This document shows positions 1-10,601 of a stretch of DNA of 10,601 nt, piece after piece. The translations under genes were made by a program, and so were the position numbers. Each line of letters starts with the position of its first letter. Within the stretch, counting starts at the first letter, position 1. Origin of the DNA: Gammaproteobacteria bacterium (GTDB taxonomy: Bacteria > Pseudomonadota > Gammaproteobacteria > Arenicellales > Poriferihabitantaceae); contig VXPI01000362.1 in the NCBI GenBank assembly GCA_009839585.1, forward strand, positions 1-10,601, given 5' to 3'. The notes beneath the pieces are model-generated. The model saw nothing but the letters and a program-made list of their open reading frames with translations. It ran no database searches and had not been told where the DNA came from.

Positions 1-256
1 ACGTTTTTTTTTCAAGTTCATAACTCCCGATATCCAAACGAACGTCCGTCAGTCCGGTATCAGCAGAAATCAGGCAGCTCTTTATGTCATCCAGAAGGTT
101 GCTACGAATGTGCTCGAGGACATACTGGTTTGGCGCCAACAGCTTTAGCACCGAGTTTTTCTTATGGTAGTGAAGAACGGAAATCGATGAATCAATTTCT
201 TTTTCGGTCATGACTTCCTTTAGTTTCTCTATGCAATCTCCCCAAAACTCATCCAT
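1..256 (-). CDS. dnaA: Chromosomal replication initiator DnaA, N-terminal part (3' end outside window)
   Basis: DnaA is the ATP-dependent initiator that binds DnaA boxes and opens oriC. Translating the minus strand from the ATG at 256-254 gives 85 codons open to the left edge, beginning MDEFWGDCIEKLKEV. Residues around 40-60 read LLAPNQYVLEHIRSNLLDDI, which aligns with the E. coli DnaA domain I segment ([20 protein letters not shown]). Only domain I, which contacts helicase loader or helicase and other DnaA molecules, is visible; the AAA+ and DNA-binding domains lie outside. A GGAG motif sits about 11 bases before the ATG. The opening residues differ noticeably from the usual SLWQQCL type, so the species is probably not a close relative of the enterics. 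The AT-rich, DnaA-box-containing region just upstream supports the call and suggests the usual autoregulation. Confidence 0.88.
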   Translation of the reverse strand, partial: MDEFWGDCIEKLKEVMTEKEIDSSISVLHYHKKNSVLKLLAPNQYVLEHIRSNLLDDIKSCLISADTGLTDVRLDIGSYELEKKT

Positions 257-1939: not shown

Positions 1940-3133
1940 CTATCCTTGAACGATATCCGTCTGGTGGCTTTCGTTCTCAACAACGCACTCGTATACCAGT
2001 CTGGCAAAGTGCTGCAGTACCGGGTCCCAGTAAGGAGACAGCACTCCACCATCGAAACCTTCAGAATATCGCCCCGCCTGCATGCGCTCAATGATCCCAA
2101 TGTCTTCCACATTCAGCGCTCTCCAGTTTTCCGCCACCCTTTTCCTTGCATCAGCATACTGTGGGGCTGTAGCCCCTTCACCGACAAAATAAAGCGCTAT
2201 TGTTTCTCGCGATGCATCAACCCGTAATGGAGATACAGTGAACACATCCACTTGGTCAGGAAAAACCTCAAAAGCGAAATTTGGAAAAAGAACATACCAA
2301 TCTCCCCGTTTCTTTTTCTGCTCTGGCAATCCCGGAAAATACGGCAGGCCCTCACCACGAGCCGGGTCGGTATGTTGAAAATCATATCCGCACATCAGGA
2401 CATGACGATCAAAGGTCGGTGCTGTTCGCTCGTTCATGCCAACAAAGTCATTTAGCCATGGATGGCACGAGAACACATGATAGGGTTCTATAAAATTCTC
2501 GATAACAAGTTTCCAGTTTGCCTTGATATCGAATTCCATTGATGTGGAAAATGACAGTGCACTGAAATCATACTCATGCAACCGGCTAAGCAAGGGCTCA
2601 AGATACTGCACAAGATCGACTGCCTTGCCATCAAGATTGACAAATATCCAGTCATGCCAGATATCACAGCGAACAGGAACGAGACCACTGTTTTGACCGT
2701 GATTGCTGTTGATATCATGCCGGTCACCGCCGTAAAAATGCGGGCGAGCCATCAGTTTTCCATCAAGCGAATAGCTCCAGGAATGGTTGGGGCAGATGAT
2801 TGAACGACCTCCTTGAATGGTGTCAAGCACTAATTTCGCACCCCGATGACGACAGGCGTTGTGGAAGGCCCGAATCCTGGCGTCACGCCCCCGCACCAAT
2901 ATCAACGGGCTACCCGCAATCTCAACCGGCATTATGTCGCCTGGATTGGCGATTTGGTGAGCAAACCCAGCAAAAACCCAGGTTCTTCGAAATACTTGTG
3001 TGCGCTCTATTTTCTCGAACGACTCACTGGTATAGACAATGTTGGGCAATGCCGAACCGTCCTGCACAGCGCAATAAAGCTTTTCTCTCAACCTCTCGTC
3101 AAAGAAATCGCTTGCAGTGGATGCAACCTTCAT
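1940..3133 (-). CDS. Rieske non-heme iron oxygenase, quaternary-ammonium (betaine) demethylase type
   Basis: This 397-residue protein is the terminal oxygenase of a two-component Rieske system: a [2Fe-2S] cluster passes electrons to a mononuclear iron that activates O2, typically hydroxylating an N-methyl group so that formaldehyde is lost. The Rieske ligands are Cys94-x-His96 and Cys114-x2-His117. The iron site sits in NWKLVIENFIEPYHVFSCHP, with His219 and His224 and Asp344 as the likely third ligand. Glu216, where ring-hydroxylating dioxygenases have Asp, is typical of the carnitine/glycine betaine/stachydrine group (CntA, GbcA, Stc2). I chose the ATG at 3133 because it gives the normal family length and lies downstream of a good promoter; the longer frame to 3235 would start upstream of that promoter. 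No ferredoxin reductase partner is visible. It is divergent from a demethylase-type flavoenzyme, suggesting a shared betaine substrate. The exact substrate is unknown. Confidence 0.85.
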   Translation of the reverse strand: MKVASTASDFFDERLREKLYCAVQDGSALPNIVYTSESFEKIERTQVFRRTWVFAGFAHQIANPGDIMPVEIAGSPLILVRGRDARIRAFHNACRHRGAKLVLDTIQGGRSIICPNHSWSYSLDGKLMARPHFYGGDRHDINSNHGQNSGLVPVRCDIWHDWIFVNLDGKAVDLVQYLEPLLSRLHEYDFSALSFSTSMEFDIKANWKLVIENFIEPYHVFSCHPWLNDFVGMNERTAPTFDRHVLMCGYDFQHTDPARGEGLPYFPGLPEQKKKRGDWYVLFPNFAFEVFPDQVDVFTVSPLRVDASRETIALYFVGEGATAPQYADARKRVAENWRALNVEDIGIIERMQAGRYSEGFDGGVLSPYWDPVLQHFARLVYECVVENESHQTDIVQG

Positions 3134-3186
3134 AGACAAGCCCAAGAAACTCTGATTTAATCTACAGGATAAGACACTGTACTTGG

Positions 3187-3215
3187 AATATAGTTTTATT
3201 TCTATCCATTCGCAA
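3187..3215 (-). promoter_or_regulatory. Sigma-70-type promoter for the Rieske oxygenase gene
   Basis: On the minus strand TTGCGA (3215-3210, 4/6 match to the -35 consensus) is followed after exactly 17 bases by TATATT (3192-3187, 5/6 match to the -10 consensus). Transcription would begin near 3180, leaving a leader of about 45 bases before the ATG at 3133. I found no comparably good promoter for the divergent plus-strand gene in the same 117-base gap. Confidence 0.5.
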
Positions 3216-3250
3216 GAAAAAATCAGCCCGTCCATTTTTGTATCAGTCTA

Positions 3251-5206
3251 ATGCATGATTGTCTACTTGAACCCGTCTGGCTCGGCCCCGTTCGAGCCCA
3301 GAATCGGGTGTTCAGCCCGCCCCATGGAACTACTCTCGGTAAGAACGGAACAGTTTCTGAGGCCCTGATTGCCTATCATCGTGAACGAGCCAAAGGTGGG
3401 GTTGGTCTCATTATCCTGGAAGGCATGACCATTCATCCGAGCTATAGTTTCGAGGAATCATTCCTTTACGCCGGATCAGATCAAATTATCGCTGGATTAG
3501 AGAAGCTTGCTACGGCCTGCCACCCGTATGGTGCTCCCATGTTCGGTCAATTGTTTCACGCTGGCCGGGCCGTACGTCTCAGTCGGGATGGTTCTCGTCC
3601 CGTTACCTATTCGGCCTCGGATGTTCCCGATGAGCGGTACCGGGTCGTCCCCTGCCCAATGCCAAACGAGATGGTCTGGGAAGTTATAGAAAGCTATGCC
3701 CAGGCGGCTAGTCGGCTTATCGAAGGAGGGCTCGATGGCGTAGAAATTCTTGCGAGCATGGGCTACTTGATCGCCCAGTTCCTAAATCCAAATACCAATC
3801 AGCGCGAAGACGAATTCGGGGGTGATCTTGCCAATAGAATGCGAATGCTGCAGGAAATTCTGGTTCGATGTCGCGAACGCATTGGGAATGACAAGACGCT
3901 AGGTGTGCGTATCACCCTTAATGAAAATACGAATTCTGGAATGGCACGTGAGGAAATGCTTGAAGCCTGTCGAATTATCGATCAAGGCAGTCTTGTCGAC
4001 TACTTCAGTGTGATTGCCGGTTCAAGTGCTTCAATGCGAGGCTGGGTTCATGTGTTTCCGCCCATGGCCGTACCACATGCTTTTGTTGCCGATGACGCTC
4101 TGGCATTAAAGCAGGTTGTTAGGAGACCAGTGTTGGTAGCCGGACGGATAAATCAACCACAAGTCGCAGCGGACATAATTAAGAAAGGCTATGCTGAGAT
4201 GGTCGGTTTGGGTCGGGCTCTGATCGCTGATCCTGAATTCGTGAATAAATTTGCTTCGGGGAAGGCAGACAACATTCGTGCCTGTGTTGCGTGTAACCAA
4301 GCCTGCGTTGGCCACCGCTTGGCACACCACCCGATCTCCTGCATTCAGCACCCTGAAAGCGGACGAGAAACCCTGTTTCCAAAAACCGGAACATCCACTC
4401 CGCCGAAAAAGGTACTGGTTATTGGTGGGGGGCCAGGAGGAATGAAAGCTGCGGCTCTGGCGGCAAATAGCGGTCAATGGGTGACTCTGATCGAAAAGGA
4501 GAATGTGCTCGGAGGCCAGGTGCGACTCGCCGAACGACTGCCGGGAAGGGCTGAGTTCGGTGGCGTCATTACCAATTTGATCAAGGAACTTGAAACAGGC
4601 AACGTAACCATACTTCTCAATACTCCGGCAACTGAAGGACTTGTCCAAGAACATCAACCCGACTTGATCGTCATCGCTACTGGGGCCAAACCCCGATTGC
4701 CAGACTCACCCGTCGGTGGCATGCAGCATCTAAACTCATGGTCTGCGTGTGAAGAGAAAGAGAGGGTAGGACAACAGATTGTCATTGCGGATTGGGCTTG
4801 CGACTGGGCCGGACTTGGACTTGCCCACAAATACGCTTTGGCAGGACATCATGTCCGGCTATTTTCAAACGGCACAGCGCCTGGCGAATCCCTGCAAGGC
4901 ATCGTACGTGACCAATGGATTGCTGAAATTCATCGGATAGGGGTTGAAATCACCCCCTACGCACGGTTTTTTGGTGCTGACAATACTACTGCATGGTTTC
5001 AGCATACTGTAAGCGATGAAGCGATCGTTTGTGAAAATGTCGATACGCTAATAAGCTGTTATGCATCATCCTCTATACGCATGCCGAAATGGCTTGAGGC
5101 TTCGAATGCGCCACTTAAAATTATCGGTGATGCCTTGTCCCCGAGAACCGTTGAGGAAGCCATATTGGAAGCTTGGGTGACCGTAGCCTCAATCAATACA
5201 TCGTGA
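3251..5206 (+). CDS. FMN/4Fe-4S/FAD NADH:flavin oxidoreductase family enzyme, likely N-demethylase (StcD/HpbA/DgcA type)
   Basis: The 651-residue protein has the layout of the 2,4-dienoyl-CoA reductase/trimethylamine dehydrogenase family. An Old-Yellow-Enzyme-like FMN barrel fills about residues 1-335 (GPVRAQNRVFSPPH, HAGR at 103-106, YLIAQFLNPNTNQREDEFGG from Tyr172). A 4Fe-4S site follows with Cys345, Cys348, Cys352 and Cys364. An FAD-binding Rossmann fold starts at VLVIGGGPGG (388-397), with a second dinucleotide-type domain around residues 520-550. Relatives include N-methylproline demethylases (StcD, HpbA) and dimethylglycine demethylase subunit DgcA, which oxidise N-methyl groups left after a Rieske enzyme removes the first methyl. 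Pairing with the divergent Rieske oxygenase fits that scheme, but the family also includes enoate reductases, so the substrate is an inference. The Shine-Dalgarno is weak; the ATG at 3251 is the first in frame and aligns with the family start. Confidence 0.82.
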   Translation: MHDCLLEPVWLGPVRAQNRVFSPPHGTTLGKNGTVSEALIAYHRERAKGGVGLIILEGMTIHPSYSFEESFLYAGSDQIIAGLEKLATACHPYGAPMFGQLFHAGRAVRLSRDGSRPVTYSASDVPDERYRVVPCPMPNEMVWEVIESYAQAASRLIEGGLDGVEILASMGYLIAQFLNPNTNQREDEFGGDLANRMRMLQEILVRCRERIGNDKTLGVRITLNENTNSGMAREEMLEACRIIDQGSLVDYFSVIAGSSASMRGWVHVFPPMAVPHAFVADDALALKQVVRRPVLVAGRINQPQVAADIIKKGYAEMVGLGRALIADPEFVNKFASGKADNIRACVACNQACVGHRLAHHPISCIQHPESGRETLFPKTGTSTPPKKVLVIGGGPGGMKAAALAANSGQWVTLIEKENVLGGQVRLAERLPGRAEFGGVITNLIKELETGNVTILLNTPATEGLVQEHQPDLIVIATGAKPRLPDSPVGGMQHLNSWSACEEKERVGQQIVIADWACDWAGLGLAHKYALAGHHVRLFSNGTAPGESLQGIVRDQWIAEIHRIGVEITPYARFFGADNTTAWFQHTVSDEAIVCENVDTLISCYASSSIRMPKWLEASNAPLKIIGDALSPRTVEEAILEAWVTVASINTS

Positions 5207-5236: not shown

Positions 5237-5776
5237 AGAAATCGGATCCTCCTTAGTGCTATAGAGCATAAATGCATCCTGTCACTCGGACACGTATTAG
5301 AGGGACAGTATGGCTTCATAGTGGATATGATCCCTGTGGACCGAAATGGTCACATCAAAATTACGGAACTGGAGCGACTACTCGGAGAAGATGTGCTTCT
5401 CGCTTCCATCATGGCTGTGAACAATGAAATCGGTTCCATACAGGATATAGAAGTACTTTCCGAGATCAACAGGAAAAATGGCACCATCTTTCATAACGAT
5501 GGATCTCAAGCTCCCATGGCAATGACCTTGGGGGATATTTCAGAGCATGTAGACATGCTTAGCCTATCTGGACATAAGATGTACGGCCCCAAAGGAGTCG
5601 GGGTGCTTTACATTCGCCGAGACTTCCAAAATCAGACAGAACCTTTGATTTACGGGGGTGGGCAACAAAATGGGATAAGATCAGGGACATTACCGACTCC
5701 ATTATGCGTTGGTATGGGGGCCGCTTGCCGACTACACCTGTTTATTCTTGACTGTGTGGTTTCTCTCGGCTATTAG
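5237..5776 (+). pseudogene. Cysteine desulfurase (IscS/NifS-type) gene fragment, both ends lost
   Basis: Cysteine desulfurases are PLP enzymes of about 400 residues that move sulfur from cysteine to a catalytic Cys. This frame holds only the central part. It enters recognisable homology at RNRILLSAIEHKCILSLG (from about 5237) with no start codon there, continues through MAVNNEIGSIQDI and FHNDGSQAP, the PLP-lysine motif SLSGHKMYGPKG (Lys codon 5576-5578) and YGGGQQNGIRSGTLPTPL. It leaves homology after CVGMGAACRL near 5735, then has about 13 unrelated residues before TAG at 5774. The N-terminal domain and the catalytic cysteine loop are absent. The frame is open from the TGA that ends the upstream flavoenzyme gene and is in phase with it, so readthrough could in principle extend that protein, but this looks accidental. 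A GTG at 5321 could start a 151-residue product, which could not be active. Confidence 0.8.
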
Positions 5777-5790
5777 AATCCCTTCCATGA

Positions 5791-6225
5791 TCATTTGGTC
5801 GGGCAATTTGTCAACCATGGATTTATTGTCTTTACCTCCGCGAAATCAAAGTCGGCGAGATTTCTAGTGACGACCGTCATGCCGTGCACCATGGCAGTTG
5901 CGGCAATCAATACATCCCTTTCAGGTCTCGGGTCGGGAACATGTAGTTTGGCACATTTCAGGGCAATGGCGGCATCAACAGGCAGTATGCGTCCCAGAAA
6001 CTCGGTCAGGACGTTCCGATCCATCCATTCCCGCAAACGATTGCCCTGTTCCGTATCACGCCGTTTTATGCGCAGAATGCCGATCTCGATCTCTAAAAGA
6101 GTGAGAGCCGATATATGAAAGCTCTCGGCATCCTGCTCTGCAACCCACGTTGCAACATTCACATTTACTCGTGCGTCTCCGATCTTGCGCAATTCGGAGA
6201 TGACATTCGTATCCAGGAGAAACAT
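5791..6225 (-). CDS. PIN-domain toxin, VapC/FitB-like
   Basis: PIN-domain toxins are small metal-dependent RNases that cleave tRNA, rRNA or other RNA and are held inactive by their antitoxin. The 144-residue protein opens with MFLLDTNVISELRK and has the expected acidic quartet: Asp5, Glu45 (in ALTLLEIEIG), Asp104 (in PERDVLIAATA) and Asp125 (in TRNLADF). The length is typical of the FitB branch. I chose the ATG at 6225-6223 because it overlaps the antitoxin stop as TGATG, the usual coupled arrangement; a GTG two codons upstream is possible. All catalytic residues are present, so the toxin is predicted active. It is convergent with the broken cysteine desulfurase fragment, 14 bases away. The RNA target cannot be inferred. 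Confidence 0.88.
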   Translation of the reverse strand: MFLLDTNVISELRKIGDARVNVNVATWVAEQDAESFHISALTLLEIEIGILRIKRRDTEQGNRLREWMDRNVLTEFLGRILPVDAAIALKCAKLHVPDPRPERDVLIAATAMVHGMTVVTRNLADFDFAEVKTINPWLTNCPTK

Positions 6226-6479
6226 CAGCACAGTTCGTCCAATGACAGGCCCAGATTCATGCGTGGCGGATCAAGATTGATTTCGGAGAGCCCTTTCATT
6301 GATAAGGAATCCAGAAGATTTCGTCGCTCTTTCGAAAGCTTTTCATAGGCTTTAATGTCGAGCAGCACGTGAGCGGGTCTTCCGCGATCAGTAATGATTA
6401 CGGGACCAGAAGCGGCTGCTCTTTTTGCCTCGGAAGGGTTCTGATTGAATTCACGGCTGGTAAGGGTCGTGATCGTCAT
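6225..6479 (-). CDS. Phd/YefM-family antitoxin
   Basis: This 84-residue protein is the partner of the downstream PIN toxin. Its N-terminal half, with SREFNQNPSEAKRAA and GPVIITDRGRPAHVLLDIKAYEKL, is the Phd/YefM DNA-binding and dimerisation fold. The C-terminal part, from about residue 50, would be the toxin-wrapping segment. The ATG at 6479 has a strong Shine-Dalgarno (GGAG, 7 bases upstream), and the stop overlaps the toxin ATG, so the two are co-translated. Proteins of this family bind palindromes at their own promoter alone or with toxin. A 7-base inverted repeat lies 18-39 bases upstream of the start and just downstream of a good promoter, fitting autorepression. Confidence 0.88.
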   Translation of the reverse strand: MTITTLTSREFNQNPSEAKRAAASGPVIITDRGRPAHVLLDIKAYEKLSKERRNLLDSLSMKGLSEINLDPPRMNLGLSLDELC

Positions 6480-6631: not shown

Positions 6632-7585
6632 TTATCCGGCAACCGCTACAAAAGCCCCGCCATTCTGGCGGGCAACTTCCCGCATCAATGCCGAGTACTG
6701 CTGATTTGTAACCGGTGTAAGCGGGTTAAAAAAGCCTATGCCATGAATTCGTGCCTGGCTTTTCTGGGTCTTGGGATCGGTATTGAGTCTCGATATCTGT
6801 TGAAGCGGGATATCGTAAGACCCTCCGGAATATTCATCCCCCATCACATAAATGGAAAGATCCTTTCGGTAACTTGAATAAGCCCTGAGCGCAGCCTTGA
6901 TACCGGGCACGGGATCACTATATGACATTGCAGCCCAGTTTTTTATCGCACGCAACACCGAAGTACGCCTCGCTGGCGAATCGGGTATCCATCTTCGTGC
7001 GTACGAGGATATCAAATGACTTCCACTGTCATTCATCACCTGAAAACCCTCTACCTCCGGATGAGCTTCCAAAAGGCTTTCCACCTGCGCCATGACTCGT
7101 GGCCAGATCTGCTGCATGCTGCCTGAAGTATCAATCACGAAAACAACATACTTTCGGTCAACCGGAATTCCTCCTACATTTTCGATCTTTGGCGACGGGG
7201 CGGGCGGCTTTTTCTCCTTGCTCGCCTGATTGATGCTCTCTTTGAGGACAGCGACGCGTTGTTCATGCTCGTTAATTCTGCGATCAACATCGCCAAGATT
7301 CTGCTCGGTTAGATTAATCATCTCCGTACCCAGTGCAATCCGTGTTTTTTCCACCGTAATCTGTTCCTGGATTTCACGAATTCGACTCATCGCTTCATCA
7401 CGCCTGGTCATCTCGGCGGCCAGTGCATCAAGCCGGGCAGTTGCTGCTTGTGCGTCATGCACTGAAGGGTCTGGACTGTCCTTGGCAAGCAAAACCAGTA
7501 ACACAATCGCGCCAAAGCCACAGGCAATAATGTCAAGAAACGATGTGCTTGTGAAGTTGTTTCTTCTTTGTCCCAGCTCGCTCAT
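6632..7585 (-). CDS. Membrane-anchored vWA protein 2 with ExbD/TolR-like transmembrane helix
   Basis: The ATG at 7585 overlaps the upstream stop as ATGA and gives 317 residues; an upstream in-frame start at 7642 lies inside the previous gene and is less likely. Residues 15-34 form one transmembrane helix starting SFLDIIACGFGAIVLLVLL. Asp18 sits where ExbD/TolR have their proton-binding Asp (FIDVM in ExbD). Residues about 44-124 are rich in charged heptads and probably form a coiled coil, followed by a Pro-rich linker (PPAPSPK). A vWA domain begins near 145 (YVVFVIDTSGSM) with metal-site residues Asp152, Ser154 and Ser156; the usual TDG motif is replaced by MGDE around Asp250. Predicted topology is a short cytoplasmic N-terminus with coiled coil and vWA outside. 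It is the last operon gene and a paralogue of the preceding one. Its ligand is unknown. Confidence 0.85.
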   Translation of the reverse strand: MSELGQRRNNFTSTSFLDIIACGFGAIVLLVLLAKDSPDPSVHDAQAATARLDALAAEMTRRDEAMSRIREIQEQITVEKTRIALGTEMINLTEQNLGDVDRRINEHEQRVAVLKESINQASKEKKPPAPSPKIENVGGIPVDRKYVVFVIDTSGSMQQIWPRVMAQVESLLEAHPEVEGFQVMNDSGSHLISSYARRWIPDSPARRTSVLRAIKNWAAMSYSDPVPGIKAALRAYSSYRKDLSIYVMGDEYSGGSYDIPLQQISRLNTDPKTQKSQARIHGIGFFNPLTPVTNQQYSALMREVARQNGGAFVAVAG

Positions 7586-8667
7586 GGCCAGCCTGCTCCC
7601 GGACTTGTTACGGTGCCGCCTGTGGAGGAAGCCAGCGTCCAATAAGCGTAAACCGCATAAGGGTCTCCCTCCAGTGGCATGAGTATGGTATTGACGGTTG
7701 CATTGGTGCTGTCATGATACAGGCTACGCGCGTCAGCAAACAACGCCAATCTGCATGAGCCTGAGATCGTGCTCTTGGATAATCCGATGGGGTTGCAGCC
7801 CAAACGGGCAAGCGTAGTCAGTGCTGGAGTTGGGCCCAAAGTGGGTAATCCATCGGTGATCAGGTAAATATTCGTGGGGTTAATGCCACGGCGGACAATA
7901 AACTCGATCGCACTGTGCAAATTGGTGGAACCATCCGGAACCAGATTCGACAGAGCCTTCATGGTTCTTCCGGCTTGTCTTCCGTCGTTCGGCTTGGTCC
8001 ACCGGTTACCAATCAGGAAATCCGCTTTCTTGGCATAGTGGACTATCATGTACTGACTGCCTTCAGGAACGCGCTCGACTAGCCATTTAACCGCCCTCAG
8101 CGTCCTTTGCCATTTTGGAGACTTGCGCTTGGTAGCGTCGTCCGATACCTGGGTTTTTACGATATCGATAATTCGAGAATCGGTCATGGAAGCACTGCGA
8201 TCGATCAGAATCAATATACGCCTCCCCTCAACTCGAATTCCGAGTAGATGATGTTGCGTTGGCCCCGGTGTTTCAACAACCGGCACTGGCTCCTCGCTAC
8301 TTGCGAGCCTGACCTCTTCCACAGCCTTCTCAAGAGCCTGTATTTCCGCCATTACCTGCTGGAGCTTCTTTTCCTTGCCCTCCTGTTCAGCCACCCGAAA
8401 GGCCATCCGGGCTTCTTGGTCATCCTTCTCTTCGGTTAATGCCCTGTATTCGGCAACCAGTTCTGCGCTCTCTCGTTCTATTGTGCTTTGCTGGGCGCGC
8501 AGTTCGGCAATATCACTATCCAGGTTGCCGTGATCTGTCTCTGCCTCCGAAACATTGGCGTGGTACTTGACCAACATGAAAATAAGTGTGACCGCACCAA
8601 GCCCACATGCCATTACATCCAGAAATGCCAGTCCAAAAGACGAGGTAAGTTGTCTATTCCTCGGCAT
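7582..8667 (-). CDS. Membrane-anchored vWA protein 1 with ExbD/TolR-like transmembrane helix
   Basis: The 361-residue protein starts at the ATG at 8667, 14 bases inside the end of the channel gene. Residues 14-34 form one transmembrane helix (AFLDVMACGLGAVTLIFMLV) with Asp17 placed like the proton-carrying Asp of ExbD/TolR. Residues about 46-122 are a strong coiled-coil candidate. A Pro-rich linker (EEPVPVVETPGP) leads to a vWA domain starting near 149 (RRILILIDRSASM) with a complete metal site: Asp156, Ser158, Ser160, Thr248 (DGSTN) and Asp272 (TDG). Such domains usually bind protein ligands through a Mg ion. The helix and general layout match the next gene, so the two arose by duplication, though the vWA parts have diverged. 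The context suggests it is a rod subunit of a TolQ/ExbB-type channel. No peptidoglycan-binding OmpA-like domain is present. Confidence 0.86.
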   Translation of the reverse strand: MPRNRQLTSSFGLAFLDVMACGLGAVTLIFMLVKYHANVSEAETDHGNLDSDIAELRAQQSTIERESAELVAEYRALTEEKDDQEARMAFRVAEQEGKEKKLQQVMAEIQALEKAVEEVRLASSEEPVPVVETPGPTQHHLLGIRVEGRRILILIDRSASMTDSRIIDIVKTQVSDDATKRKSPKWQRTLRAVKWLVERVPEGSQYMIVHYAKKADFLIGNRWTKPNDGRQAGRTMKALSNLVPDGSTNLHSAIEFIVRRGINPTNIYLITDGLPTLGPTPALTTLARLGCNPIGLSKSTISGSCRLALFADARSLYHDSTNATVNTILMPLEGDPYAVYAYWTLASSTGGTVTSPGAGWP

Positions 8668-9475
8668 CCGCCTTGCCTATGCGATTCAGTAAAAACTGTT
8701 CGCAGTAGGACCGAATTTCAGTAATCTGACTGTCCTGAATGCGTTGCAGTTGATGCAGGAAGAACATCAGGAATATGCTGATTATTAAAGCCACAAATGT
8801 GGAGTTGAAAGCAACACCGAGGCTGGACGCCATATTTGCGATGTCGCCTGAAAGTGCCTCATCAGCATGAGTCAGCGCTTCGCCAATACCCCTTACCGTA
8901 CCGATAAATCCAATTGAGGGAATCGCCCAGATCAGATAGCGTATCATTGCATTTTCGGATTCCATTTGATGGGCCAGCGCCTCTACGCCGGTGATGATTG
9001 CCTCTGAAGTATTGTGAACACTGCGGGTGATAATGAACCGCCTTATCGAAGCGCTCAGGACCTGAATCAAGGGCGTGGACTGGACCTTCTCCGGCAGTTG
9101 CTTGAGGGTATTGAAACTATCTTCCATTTGCTGGTTGATATTTTCCCTGGAATCCAGGGATTCGCCCCCGGAATGTGTATGCAGGAAGTCGATATCAAAC
9201 AAATGGCGGTTGCGAATAATTGACATTGACTTCTCGGCGATCAAGTACGTACCCCACAGCATCAGGATGATGCATATTTCCTGCTCCACATCCTTGAGAA
9301 TGACAGCCAGAGTTCGTACCGTCGACTGCCCTGCCTCTTGCGCCAGTGCCAGATCGGTCTCGGCTTGAGGCCATATCAATTCAAGATAGACAAGGTGAAC
9401 CACCACCGTGCTGATAGCAAGTGCCAAAAGACTGCCGAGTGGTACGATACGTTTGTATGATGATGCTGTAATCAC
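8654..9475 (-). CDS. MotA/TolQ/ExbB proton-channel family protein
   Basis: Proteins of this family form pentameric rings in the inner membrane that convert proton flow into motion of two central rod proteins. The 273-residue protein has likely transmembrane helices at about 12-34, 66-82, 180-201 and 216-241. The signature is in helix 3, IPSIGFIGTVRGIGEAL (compare TolQ APYIGLFGTVWGI), and helix 4, LGVAFNSTFVALIISIF. Thr193 and Thr226 fall where ExbB/TolQ have conserved pore threonines. The cytoplasmic part between helices 2 and 3 is about 100 residues, and there is no long C-terminal tail of the kind seen in ZorA. The start is the GTG at 9475; no in-frame ATG occurs before helix 2. The gene overlaps the first vWA gene by 14 bases, implying coupled synthesis of channel and rods. 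No separate ExbD/TolR or MotB gene is present. Confidence 0.87.
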   Translation of the reverse strand: MITASSYKRIVPLGSLLALAISTVVVHLVYLELIWPQAETDLALAQEAGQSTVRTLAVILKDVEQEICIILMLWGTYLIAEKSMSIIRNRHLFDIDFLHTHSGGESLDSRENINQQMEDSFNTLKQLPEKVQSTPLIQVLSASIRRFIITRSVHNTSEAIITGVEALAHQMESENAMIRYLIWAIPSIGFIGTVRGIGEALTHADEALSGDIANMASSLGVAFNSTFVALIISIFLMFFLHQLQRIQDSQITEIRSYCEQFLLNRIGKADAEE

Positions 9476-9524
9476 GACATATCTTCGCTGGGTATCATGA
9501 ATTTTAAGACCGGATTCTCGATTA

Positions 9525-9537
9525 CGGGATATTCCCG
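9525..9537 (-). other. Small hairpin in the 66-base gap before the channel gene
   Basis: CGGGA (9525-9529) and TCCCG (9533-9537) form a perfect 5-base stem with a 3-base loop, just after the stop codon of the 53-residue gene. It occupies the only real gap of the operon and could pause transcription or protect the downstream mRNA. It has no U-tract, so it is not a typical terminator. Confidence 0.3.
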
Positions 9538-9541
9538 AGGC

Positions 9542-9703
9542 TTAGATGTCGACCGGAAATGTTAATGGAGAATTCAGGCTTACGGAATAGGGTTTCTCAT
9601 CCTGTGCCGAGATTTTTTCATGATAGAAGAACCATGCTGAGGCAATAACCAGAGCCAGGCTCATCGAAAGACTTGCAACAATTATTTTTCGTGTTTGTTT
9701 CAT
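9542..9703 (-). CDS. Small single-span membrane protein (53 aa), unknown
   Basis: This short gene starts at the ATG at 9703, overlapping the stop of the SUMF1-fold gene as ATGA, and ends with TAA at 9544-9542. The product begins MKQTRKIIVASLSMSLALVI: a positively charged N-terminus, then a hydrophobic segment at about residues 7-27, then a roughly 26-residue tail ending in SLNSPLTFPVDI. It may be an inner-membrane single-span protein with the tail outside, or a small secreted protein if the segment is a signal peptide; the ASA at 21-23 could be a cleavage site, leaving about 30 residues. The four-base overlap and its place inside the operon argue that it is translated and belongs to the system. 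I do not recognise a family. It is short enough to be missed by gene callers. Confidence 0.7.
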   Translation of the reverse strand: MKQTRKIIVASLSMSLALVIASAWFFYHEKISAQDEKPYSVSLNSPLTFPVDI

Positions 9704-10601
9704 TGTTCCACACCATAAACATAACGCGCAACCCGGAATCCAACATCGTCCCGGGGCTCCGAGACTCCCTCGCGGAAACTTGATCGCATCTCACTTACTC
9801 TCGCGGTTCGAAAATTACTTCCCTTCACAACATGACTCGGTCCCCTCTGCAATCCCATCGGATCAACCCTGATTGTCCCGGATGCCGGTGGAGCCAAATG
9901 ATAGACATCATGCATCCATTCGCTGACATTGCCGGCCATGTCATGCAGGCCATTTATATCAGCGAGAAAAGACCCCACTGGTGATATTTCCGGGAAACCA
10001 TCATTGTAATCAGGGATAATTCTGGATAATACACCCTTGGCACTCTCATCAGCAAAATTGCCCGCTTTCTCCGGAATTTCAAGACTGTTTCCCCATAAGA
10101 AGCGAAACATTCTGGAACGACCAGCCAATCTCGCCAGCCACTCCCATTCAGCTTCTGAAATCAATCGATACCCGGTCGCTTGAGGGTTATGCCCAATGAC
10201 GTTACCCGATGCATCAAACTGATATACAGGGTCGAACTTTTCCTGATTGCTTAACCAGTTGCAAAATCTGGCAGCATCGACCCATGACAAATTGGTCTTG
10301 GGTAAAGATGGGCCAGGGGTTTTCTCGCCACTGAACTTGTCAAACTGCTGGTTGGTGACCTCTGTGACTCCCGCATAAAAGGGCTTTTCCAGAACAGTAC
10401 TACGTAAAAATTCATTGGCTCGTTGCCCCGGCTCGTCAGGCGGAGCACCCATGGTAAAACGAACCCCGTCTGGTTTGAACAGTTTCACCCTGATGCCAGT
10501 CGAACTTGTGGCTTGAGGCTTCGCCTCGGCAATACTTGCTTCTGCTTCCGTTTGCAGGGTTTTCTCAATCAATAACGGGAAACTCGCATCTGGCATAAAA
10601 C
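9700..10601 (-). CDS. SUMF1/formylglycine-generating-enzyme-fold protein, 5' end not certain
   Basis: The SUMF1 fold includes formylglycine-generating enzyme, EgtB, PvdO and many binding-only members. From the ATG at 10596 there are 298 residues, but the frame stays open to the window edge, so the protein may be longer. After a linker-like first 35 residues the hallmarks appear in order: FTMG (47-50), EVTNQQFDKF (79-88), LSWVDAARFCNWLS (103-116), GYRLISEAEWEWLARLAG (142-159), WGN (168-170), GLHDMAGNVSEW (216-227), KGSNFR (258-263) and VGFRVAR (285-291). The only cysteine is Cys112; the paired catalytic cysteines that formylglycine-generating enzymes carry in the C-terminal part are absent, as is an EgtB-like HxxxHE iron motif. 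It is therefore probably a binding or structural protein, not a sulfatase activator. The stop overlaps the 53-residue gene, placing it first of the visible operon. Confidence 0.85.
   Translation of the reverse strand, partial: FMPDASFPLLIEKTLQTEAEASIAEAKPQATSSTGIRVKLFKPDGVRFTMGAPPDEPGQRANEFLRSTVLEKPFYAGVTEVTNQQFDKFSGEKTPGPSLPKTNLSWVDAARFCNWLSNQEKFDPVYQFDASGNVIGHNPQATGYRLISEAEWEWLARLAGRSRMFRFLWGNSLEIPEKAGNFADESAKGVLSRIIPDYNDGFPEISPVGSFLADINGLHDMAGNVSEWMHDVYHLAPPASGTIRVDPMGLQRGPSHVVKGSNFRTARVSEMRSSFREGVSEPRDDVGFRVARYVYGVEQ

Follow-up and report, generated by a model that had tools for sequence, protein, structure and literature searches.

Background and organization of the locus

To our knowledge, few types of proton-driven trans-envelope motors have been characterised, namely Mot, Ton, Tol, Zorya and T9SS. 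Zorya is composed of ZorA and ZorB, together with cytosolic ZorC and ZorD or ZorE. In 2025, Williams-Jones et al. proposed a motor in which TolQ is combined with paired vWA axles, and their Fig. 4c,d presents a second vWA family anchored on Idiomarina loihiensis (PMC12204202). PorK has an FGE fold without the catalytic cysteines and functions as a hub for docking (PMC12421860).

The window analysed here, a stretch of 10,601 nucleotides, is an entire contig of a Gammaproteobacteria bacterium, and its end cuts inside the first gene (D). Five genes lie on the minus strand, three of the junctions being overlaps (4, 14 and 4 bases) and one a gap of 66 bases, in agreement with the compact five-gene operon of the initial annotation. 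They make up the 3' half of a conserved operon of eight genes, A-B-C-D(FGE)-E-F(TolQ)-G(vWA1)-H(vWA2). The features of the window are the following:

9700..10601, minus strand: gene D, of which the contig end leaves the C-terminal part with the FGE/SUMF1-fold domain
9542..9703, minus strand: gene E, 53 aa, with a signal sequence followed by about 20 aa of tail, proposed to be the precursor of a secreted peptide
9545..9577, minus strand: conserved C-terminal tail of E, LNSPLTFPVDI, with the core F-P-x-[D/G]-I at the extreme end
8654..9475, minus strand: gene F, channel of the TolQ/ExbB/MotA family, 273 aa, starting with GTG
7582..8667, minus strand: gene G, vWA1, 361 aa, with pore helix, coiled coil and vWA domain
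8566..8637, minus strand: ExbD/TolR-like transpore helix of vWA1, Asp17 (codon 8617-8619), Asp motif in 77/77 loci
6632..7585, minus strand: gene H, vWA2, 317 aa, with pore helix, long helix and vWA domain
7481..7543, minus strand: ExbD/TolR-like transpore helix of vWA2, Asp18 (codon 7532-7534), Asp motif in 74/74 loci

The missing 5' half of the operon sits on another contig of the same assembly, C11, which carries just A, B, C and the beginning of D, with A extending to the contig end. The N-terminal 370 aa of D, comprising the TM helix and the PEGA region, are encoded there (L094:1-1110, minus strand), and about 8 codons are absent between the two halves of D when compared with the locus L014. 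The possibility of a hidden ExbD gene directly upstream of the window was rejected on the content of this C11 half, which reaches no further than A.

Conservation and spread of the operon

Among the best 80 of 232 loci, the exact order A to H was found in 57, and in 40 of the 46 where the available space allows all eight genes. In the same 80 loci, vWA1 was present in 77, vWA2 in 74 and E, detected by profile, in 78. In these loci the channel gene did not turn out to travel mostly without the vWA genes, and the conserved co-occurrence and order looked for after the initial annotation were recovered. Its claim that the genes make one machine is supported by this order and by correlated divergence of the genes.

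The spread of the operon is patchy, with the system in 10 of 299 genomes, and named strains of Methylophaga, Mariprofundus, Magnetovibrio and Denitrobaculum carry all eight genes. In a tree of 57 rows, built from five proteins per locus strung together and aligned with MAFFT in quick mode, and with uneven composition, Desulfobacteraceae were placed beside a mainly Methylophaga clade, a placement that suggests transfer.

The channel and the two vWA proteins

Protein F belongs to PF01618 (2.6e-14, 53.5 bits against a cut-off of 22.9). It has two invariant threonines, T193 (8897-8899) and T226 (8798-8800), which by motif are taken as the putative pore threonines. No ExbD gene was found within 10 kb of the channel on the same contig in 20 channel-bearing relatives, the reach being bounded by contig ends; all 20 hold ordinary ExbD-family genes elsewhere in their genomes.

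Both vWA proteins bear an ExbD-like helix motif with an Asp, found in all 77 vWA1 loci and all 74 vWA2 loci when frames were read back to the previous stop and a wider expression was used; late starts and a narrower expression gave 56/77 and 68/74, respectively. A vWA1 start at a late ATG or TTG, by which the pore helix would be lost wholly or partly in 22 loci, was rejected because a CTG stands 13 codons ahead of the motif in 22/22 of them. The vWA domain of vWA1 has the MIDAS residues D156, S158, S160, T248 and D272. The pore-helix Asp would accept protons; the likeness to ExbD follows PMC12204202. The vWA proteins are likely the rods of channel F, as the initial annotation had claimed; it had also named an ExbD or MotB gene just outside the window as a case that would refute its reading, and the 10-kb neighbourhoods of the 20 relatives held no ExbD. 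In sequence searches of the PDB, no match was obtained with the TolQ and vWA1 profiles at E up to 0.001, or with vWA2 up to 0.01.

Protein D and the upstream partners

Protein D consists of an N-terminal membrane helix, PEGA repeats and then an FGE fold, and the FGE-sulfatase family PF03781 was matched by 17 of 17 D members. Of the 73 D tails matched by a pattern, 72 were without Cys and one had a Cys, with 3 of 76 tails unmatched; D was also aligned to human FGE. Both catalytic cysteines near the C-terminus are thus absent from the family, and the reading of the FGE part as an enzyme was not supported. The match of D to PorK spans about 205 profile positions; the 350-bit cut-off of TIGR03525 (PorK/GldK) was not reached either by the full-length L014 relative (67.4 bits) or by the window part (57.4 bits). 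The operon is a second kind, besides that of PorK, in which a motor is accompanied by an FGE fold that has lost its cysteines.

Gene B encodes a putative outer-membrane lipoprotein with a lipobox, a predicted TolB-N/CsgG/PelC/FlgT-like domain and a glycine-zipper hairpin, and it appears to resemble the ring-forming PelC, CsgG and TraT; a PDB sequence search with B gave no useful match. Protein C has TPR repeats and a conserved C-terminal domain. By Pfam, no Pal/OmpA, TolR or TolA family member was found in A to H.

The small protein E

The E gene is so short that it is easily overlooked, while the end of its tail is invariant: F-P-x-[D/G]-I closes the protein in 78/78 profile-detected copies. 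One further copy was found by eye (L087), and the variants L087, L095 and L096 keep the last residues only (FPNDI, YPVDI and FPVDI). In the E of the window, cleavage of the signal sequence was placed by eye after ISA. A secreted peptide with FPVDI at its end is the probable identity of E, in preference to the 53-aa membrane protein originally annotated.

The canonical sulfatase motif is L-C-T-P-S-R. The LNSPxS stretch of E as a degenerate form of it, bound by D, was rejected as the leading idea: some loci have lost the Pro, and the three variants above keep end residues only. A sorting signal common to many exported proteins was rejected on genome counts of the FPVDI-stop pattern. In 40 relatives, 20 matches were obtained: 13 were E genes next to the channel, and 7 lay elsewhere; of the latter, 4 read TGG instead of a stop and 3 were true stops, with 2 matches in the reversed control. 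Across 20 system-bearing genome entries, of which G087 and G341 share coordinates and are probably one genome, 20 matches were obtained, of which 18 lay at E and 2 elsewhere, both TGG, and the reversed control again gave 2.

Proposed machine and alternative explanations

We think it probable that the operon A to H specifies a single machine that crosses the envelope and runs on the proton gradient, with a TolQ pentamer, two vWA axles, a periplasmic and outer-membrane assembly, and docked E. In such a machine, F would form a TolQ-type pentamer in the inner membrane that holds G and H as its axle. The N-terminal helices of G and H would bring the proton-accepting Asp in place of ExbD, TolR or MotB, and their long coiled coils would extend the vWA heads into the periplasm, where they may act on an assembly of D, C, A and B. 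Protein D, with its membrane-anchored PEGA repeats and cysteine-less FGE fold, could be the docking hub, and E would be secreted and dock into the assembly by its C-terminal FPVDI. The complex itself, its proton-driven rotation, the force on the outer membrane and the processing and docking of E are what we infer from these features; as to function, the transmission of force to the outer membrane seems the most plausible. More tentatively, and rather improbable in its full form, the rotating vWA axle pair would work a PEGA-FGE hub and a ring of outer-membrane lipoprotein, while a secreted E peptide of 16-20 residues (FPx[D/G]I) would be a ligand belonging to the machine itself: docking through its C-terminal carboxylate into the metal site of a vWA domain or the groove left empty in the FGE fold, it would gate or couple the motor, and the machine as a whole would be new.

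A type IX-like secretion or surface-assembly machine, in which a proton motor turns the FGE-fold hub and E or a polymer is the cargo, is possible although doubtful. It would share with T9SS the outline of a 5:2-type motor, an FGE-fold pseudo-enzyme and an outer-membrane lipoprotein, and the PorK match of D and the ring-forming relatives of B agree with it. However, no PorL, PorM or PorN family and no outer-membrane translocon were recognised in the operon, and the 7 of 20 FPVDI-stop matches outside E, with their 3 true stops, reveal no cargo family bearing the E tail. A Tol-Pal-like tether, with F, G and H standing in for TolQRA and the TolB-N-like lipoprotein B pulled at the division site, seems unlikely: the 20 relatives retain ExbD-family genes, so nothing has taken the place of the standard systems; Pfam revealed no Pal/OmpA member in A to H; and presence in so few genomes is unlike an essential division system.

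The initial annotation had suggested an energised sensor or effector in the envelope and mentioned conflict systems. One alternative is an energised envelope sensor or a Zorya-like anti-phage system, in which the channel or motor is triggered by a ligand or phage component at the vWA or FGE part. MIDAS-type vWA domains and the lectin-like FGE fold can indeed bind ligands, and F weakly matches ZorA in PADLOC (18 bits, 2.3e-4). However, none of the five window proteins matched ZorC or ZorD, the matches of the vWA proteins were weak (E 0.0035 and above) and lay in coiled-coil parts, to long defence proteins, and no PADLOC match was found for the FGE part or E, nor for B, C and D at 0.01; A was weakly matched, in its protease part. 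The nearest ORFs, read by eye (53 loci for the 5' side, 63 for the 3' side) and some of them probably not genes, included no recognised defence gene, and no neighbour family outside the operon was shared by more than 11 of 68 loci. Some of these flanking ORFs look like anmK, tyrS or groEL. In vWA-MoxR systems a MoxR AAA ATPase lies next to the vWA gene; here, extra neighbours stay at or below that count of 11 in 68 loci. A defence role was thus not borne out and is held to be very improbable. A further alternative is a chance cluster, with the channel and vWA genes independent of the FGE and upstream genes; in its favour, one locus (L057) has D-E-F set apart from A-B-C-G-H in opposite orientation. 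All eight genes are nevertheless side by side there, the order is kept across classes, and TolQ, vWA1 and B co-occur in the same genomes, so that we give this explanation almost no credence.

Comparison with known systems

The preferred reading, a vWA-axle motor working on an envelope assembly, can be set against what is in print. Like the second vWA family of PMC12204202, the operon has a TolQ-like gene, two different vWA genes, a pore-helix Asp and no TolR or ExbD, and occurs in Proteobacteria; judging by these features, its TolQ-vWA core would be identical with that family. Section 8 and the Fig. 4 legend of that article name no FGE/PEGA, TPR or lipoprotein genes and no E for that family. 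In searches of open PMC papers, with few preprints among them, the lipoprotein B, the TPR protein, the PEGA-FGE hub and E were found nowhere described; PMC12905483, which mentions the title of PMC12204202, does not mention vWA, and PMC4488436, PMC11932112, PMC5915273, PMC10600179 and PMC11668736 deal, to judge by title and abstract, with other subjects. The motor core thus seems already published as a candidate, whereas the outer parts, including the tiny secreted peptide, seem undescribed; the earlier statement that no named system of this composition was known holds in part, failing for the core. If the preferred reading is true, one more trans-envelope motor is added, with a complete and compact parts list, and the 2025 motor proposal becomes a concrete eight-component system.

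With PorKLMN (GldKLMN) of T9SS and gliding, the operon would share a proton motor coupled to an FGE-fold docking hub without catalytic cysteines, as described for PorK in PMC12421860. Unlike PorK, D is no lipoprotein: its N-terminal part consists of a membrane helix and PEGA repeats, and it reaches 67 of the 350 bits of the GldK cut-off; the axle is vWA and not PorM, and no PorN, Sov or CTD cargo was recognised. Like Tol-Pal, the operon has a TolQ-family channel and, in B, a TolB-N-like domain; it differs in its vWA axles and in coexisting with ExbD-bearing systems, and no TolR, TolA, Pal or beta-propeller was recognised. A MotA/ExbB-family channel with a periplasm-facing axle is also found in ZorAB, while the operon lacks a ZorC or ZorD match, has extracytoplasmic partners and carries vWA in place of the ZorB head. 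Finally, the channel family and the Asp-bearing axle helix are common to the operon and to MotAB and ExbBD, from which it is set apart by the vWA head of its axle and by its two different axle genes.

Gene content and order of the unit

The window is an entire contig (C290) of its assembly, and the FGE frame (gene D) continues past its end; in most relatives the product at this place is about 670 aa long. Contig C11 (4,925 bases) of the same assembly holds A, B (an outer-membrane lipoprotein), C (a TPR protein) and residues 1-370 of D; with locus L014 as reference, this part of D breaks off about eight residues short of the window's D frame. The initial annotation had pointed to the genes beyond position 10601; the upstream partners A, B and C and most of the rest of D lie on C11, and its five-gene set proved incomplete. 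Neighbour clustering in the 68 loci that span 9 kb or more found three families upstream of the window's five genes, in 48, 55 and 55 loci; they are the A, B and C of contig C11. The flanking genes differ between loci, with no family from outside the unit shared by more than 11 of the 68.

Other features of the window and of C11
C11, L094:3855-4925:- (minus strand): protein A of the window's genome, with a clan AA aspartyl protease domain at its C-terminal end (TIGR02281, 89.9 bits vs a cut-off of 57.95; PF13975, 6.4e-25); the DTG motif is absent from all 64 other A proteins
Window 2-256: ORF truncated at the contig end, presumably resembling the DnaA N-terminal domain
Window 1940-5206: Rieske/ring-hydroxylating oxygenase divergent to an NADH:flavin oxidoreductase (Oxidored_FMN family)
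Window 5321-5776: class-V aminotransferase fragment spanning only positions 118-267 of a 371-position model, which looks like a broken gene
Window 5791-6479, directly downstream of the operon: Phd/YefM antitoxin and PIN-domain toxin pair

A scan of named genome contigs with the TolQ alignment gave 232 relatives. The exact order A-B-C-D-E-F-G-H was found in 57 of the best 80 of these, with profiles built from the very 80 loci then scored, and in 40 of the 46 where the channel start is preceded by 6.5 kb or more of sequence and followed by 3.5 kb or more. Gene order across genomes, a check proposed at the outset, is conserved. Three of the six deviating loci show an additional fragment match to B, C or D; L082 has masked sequence inside vWA1, L087 has no profile match for A and E (an E-like frame is present by eye), and L057 consists of two opposed blocks, D-E-F on one strand meeting A-B-C-G-H tail to tail on the opposite strand, an order unique among the 80 loci. 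Individual genes are present in 80 (F), 78 (E), 77 (G), 76 (D), 74 (H), 73 (C), 68 (B) and 64 (A) loci, short contigs accounting for at least some of the absences.

In the distant systems L095 and L096, an additional gene of 434-451 aa without Pfam match is inserted between F and G, and H is followed by three genes, two of them small; the larger one is an M48 peptidase by Pfam in L096 and alike by eye in L095.

Distribution

The loci are spread over Alpha-, Beta-, Gamma- and Zetaproteobacteria, Desulfobacteraceae and one Binatota bin, and the tree suggests some transfer between phyla. Pairwise identities across seven families correlate at 0.78-0.93 (58 to 79 rows per family, leaving out rows with X or below 85% of median length), which would also be raised by shared descent alone.

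Since the 80 loci are the nearest relatives by TolQ, 299 genomes drawn evenly from the phylum were also searched (E≤1e-40 for TolQ, 1e-20 for B, 1e-30 for vWA1). TolQ and B occurred in an identical set of 10 genomes, the window's included; seven belong to a single genus, so that the sample represents four genera. The initial annotation had considered that the channel might mostly occur without the vWA genes elsewhere; vWA1 accompanied it in nine of these ten genomes and in 77/80 loci. TolQ shared a contig with vWA1 in 9/9 genomes and with B in 8/10 (exceptions G000 and G168). The tenth TolQ (genome G162) ends at model position 167 with no stop codon, which was read as a contig end. At a looser threshold (1e-3), the matches listed comprise at least 6,891 proteins for the channel family vs at least 520 for B, and remoter channels may therefore pair with partners other than the A-H set.

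The channel and its vWA partners

Both vWA proteins start with FLD[VI]...CG.GA and continue into a hydrophobic helix, which we take to be the pattern of ExbD/TolR pore helices; the Pfam ExbD model matched neither. With frames read back as far as the preceding stop, the helix Asp is present in 77/77 vWA1 and 74/74 vWA2. A strict MIDAS expression (D-x-S-x-S) was matched by 69/77 vWA1 and 72/74 vWA2, the misses including one masked vWA1 and one vWA2 that is a 68-residue stub. Channel residues T193 and T226, presumably equivalent to the ExbB/TolQ pore threonines, are invariant in 24/24 sequences.

A normal ExbD/MotB gene just outside the window had been the other concern. A near full-length channel match was found in 20 of 40 relatives, the window's genome counted in; all 20 carry ExbD genes, on contigs different from that of the channel except in genome G032, where ExbD lies 11.3 kb away, although this is a limited test because many contigs are short.

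At 22 of the 76 plus-strand loci, no ATG/GTG/TTG stands 8-45 codons ahead of the vWA1 pore-helix motif, and a CTG lies exactly 13 codons ahead of it:
L018, L019, L020, L021, L023, L026, L027, L028, L030, L031, L034
L038, L040, L041, L055, L056, L059, L064, L066, L079, L083, L090
This CTG is probably a conserved start codon, which could hold the axle protein at a scarce level.

Gene E

The 53-aa frame of E is a genuine gene. Its matches in 78/80 loci all end in F-P-x-[D/G]-I (75 DI, 3 GI); the profile itself is weighted to the tail, so the match at the same place in 78 loci is the stronger fact. An Ala cleavage site was called in 74/78 copies, leaving 16-20 residues in 62 of the 74, by a home-made simple -3/-1 rule used without a control or a trained predictor. 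At the same position, L095 and L096 bear a gene with a signal-like start and a linker, ending SVSYPVDI or SVSFPVDI. Because of these predicted sites and signal-like starts, E is better read as a putative secreted peptide than as the membrane protein first annotated. Away from E the tail pattern occurs at near-chance level in the relatives searched, so it is not a general sorting tag; the conserved tail could be a candidate ligand, received by the FGE groove or by a metal site of a vWA domain.

Proposed function and comparison with known systems

Most likely, the vWA pair would sit inside the TolQ ring and be driven by the proton gradient, and the vWA heads would work a D-C-B assembly, putting force on the outer membrane. 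Two specific uses of such force lead: secretion or surface assembly, which is a tentative reading, and a Tol-Pal-like tether, which appears rather doubtful. A role in defence is considered quite improbable. We prefer the force-transmitting motor as the general reading.

The motor idea is not new, since section 8 of Williams-Jones et al. (2025; PMC12204202) puts forward the same motor, in which TolQ is combined with transpore-helix vWA proteins in heterologous pairs, without tolR/exbD, the AF3 models there placing the Asp pair within a threonine ring. PEGA, SUMF and sulfatase gave no match in a text search of that paper, and a description of the whole eight-gene parts list was not found in the literature searched. 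The early statement that no named system has this composition is therefore only partly right, the motor core having already been proposed in print. The conserved parts list around this published candidate motor is real.
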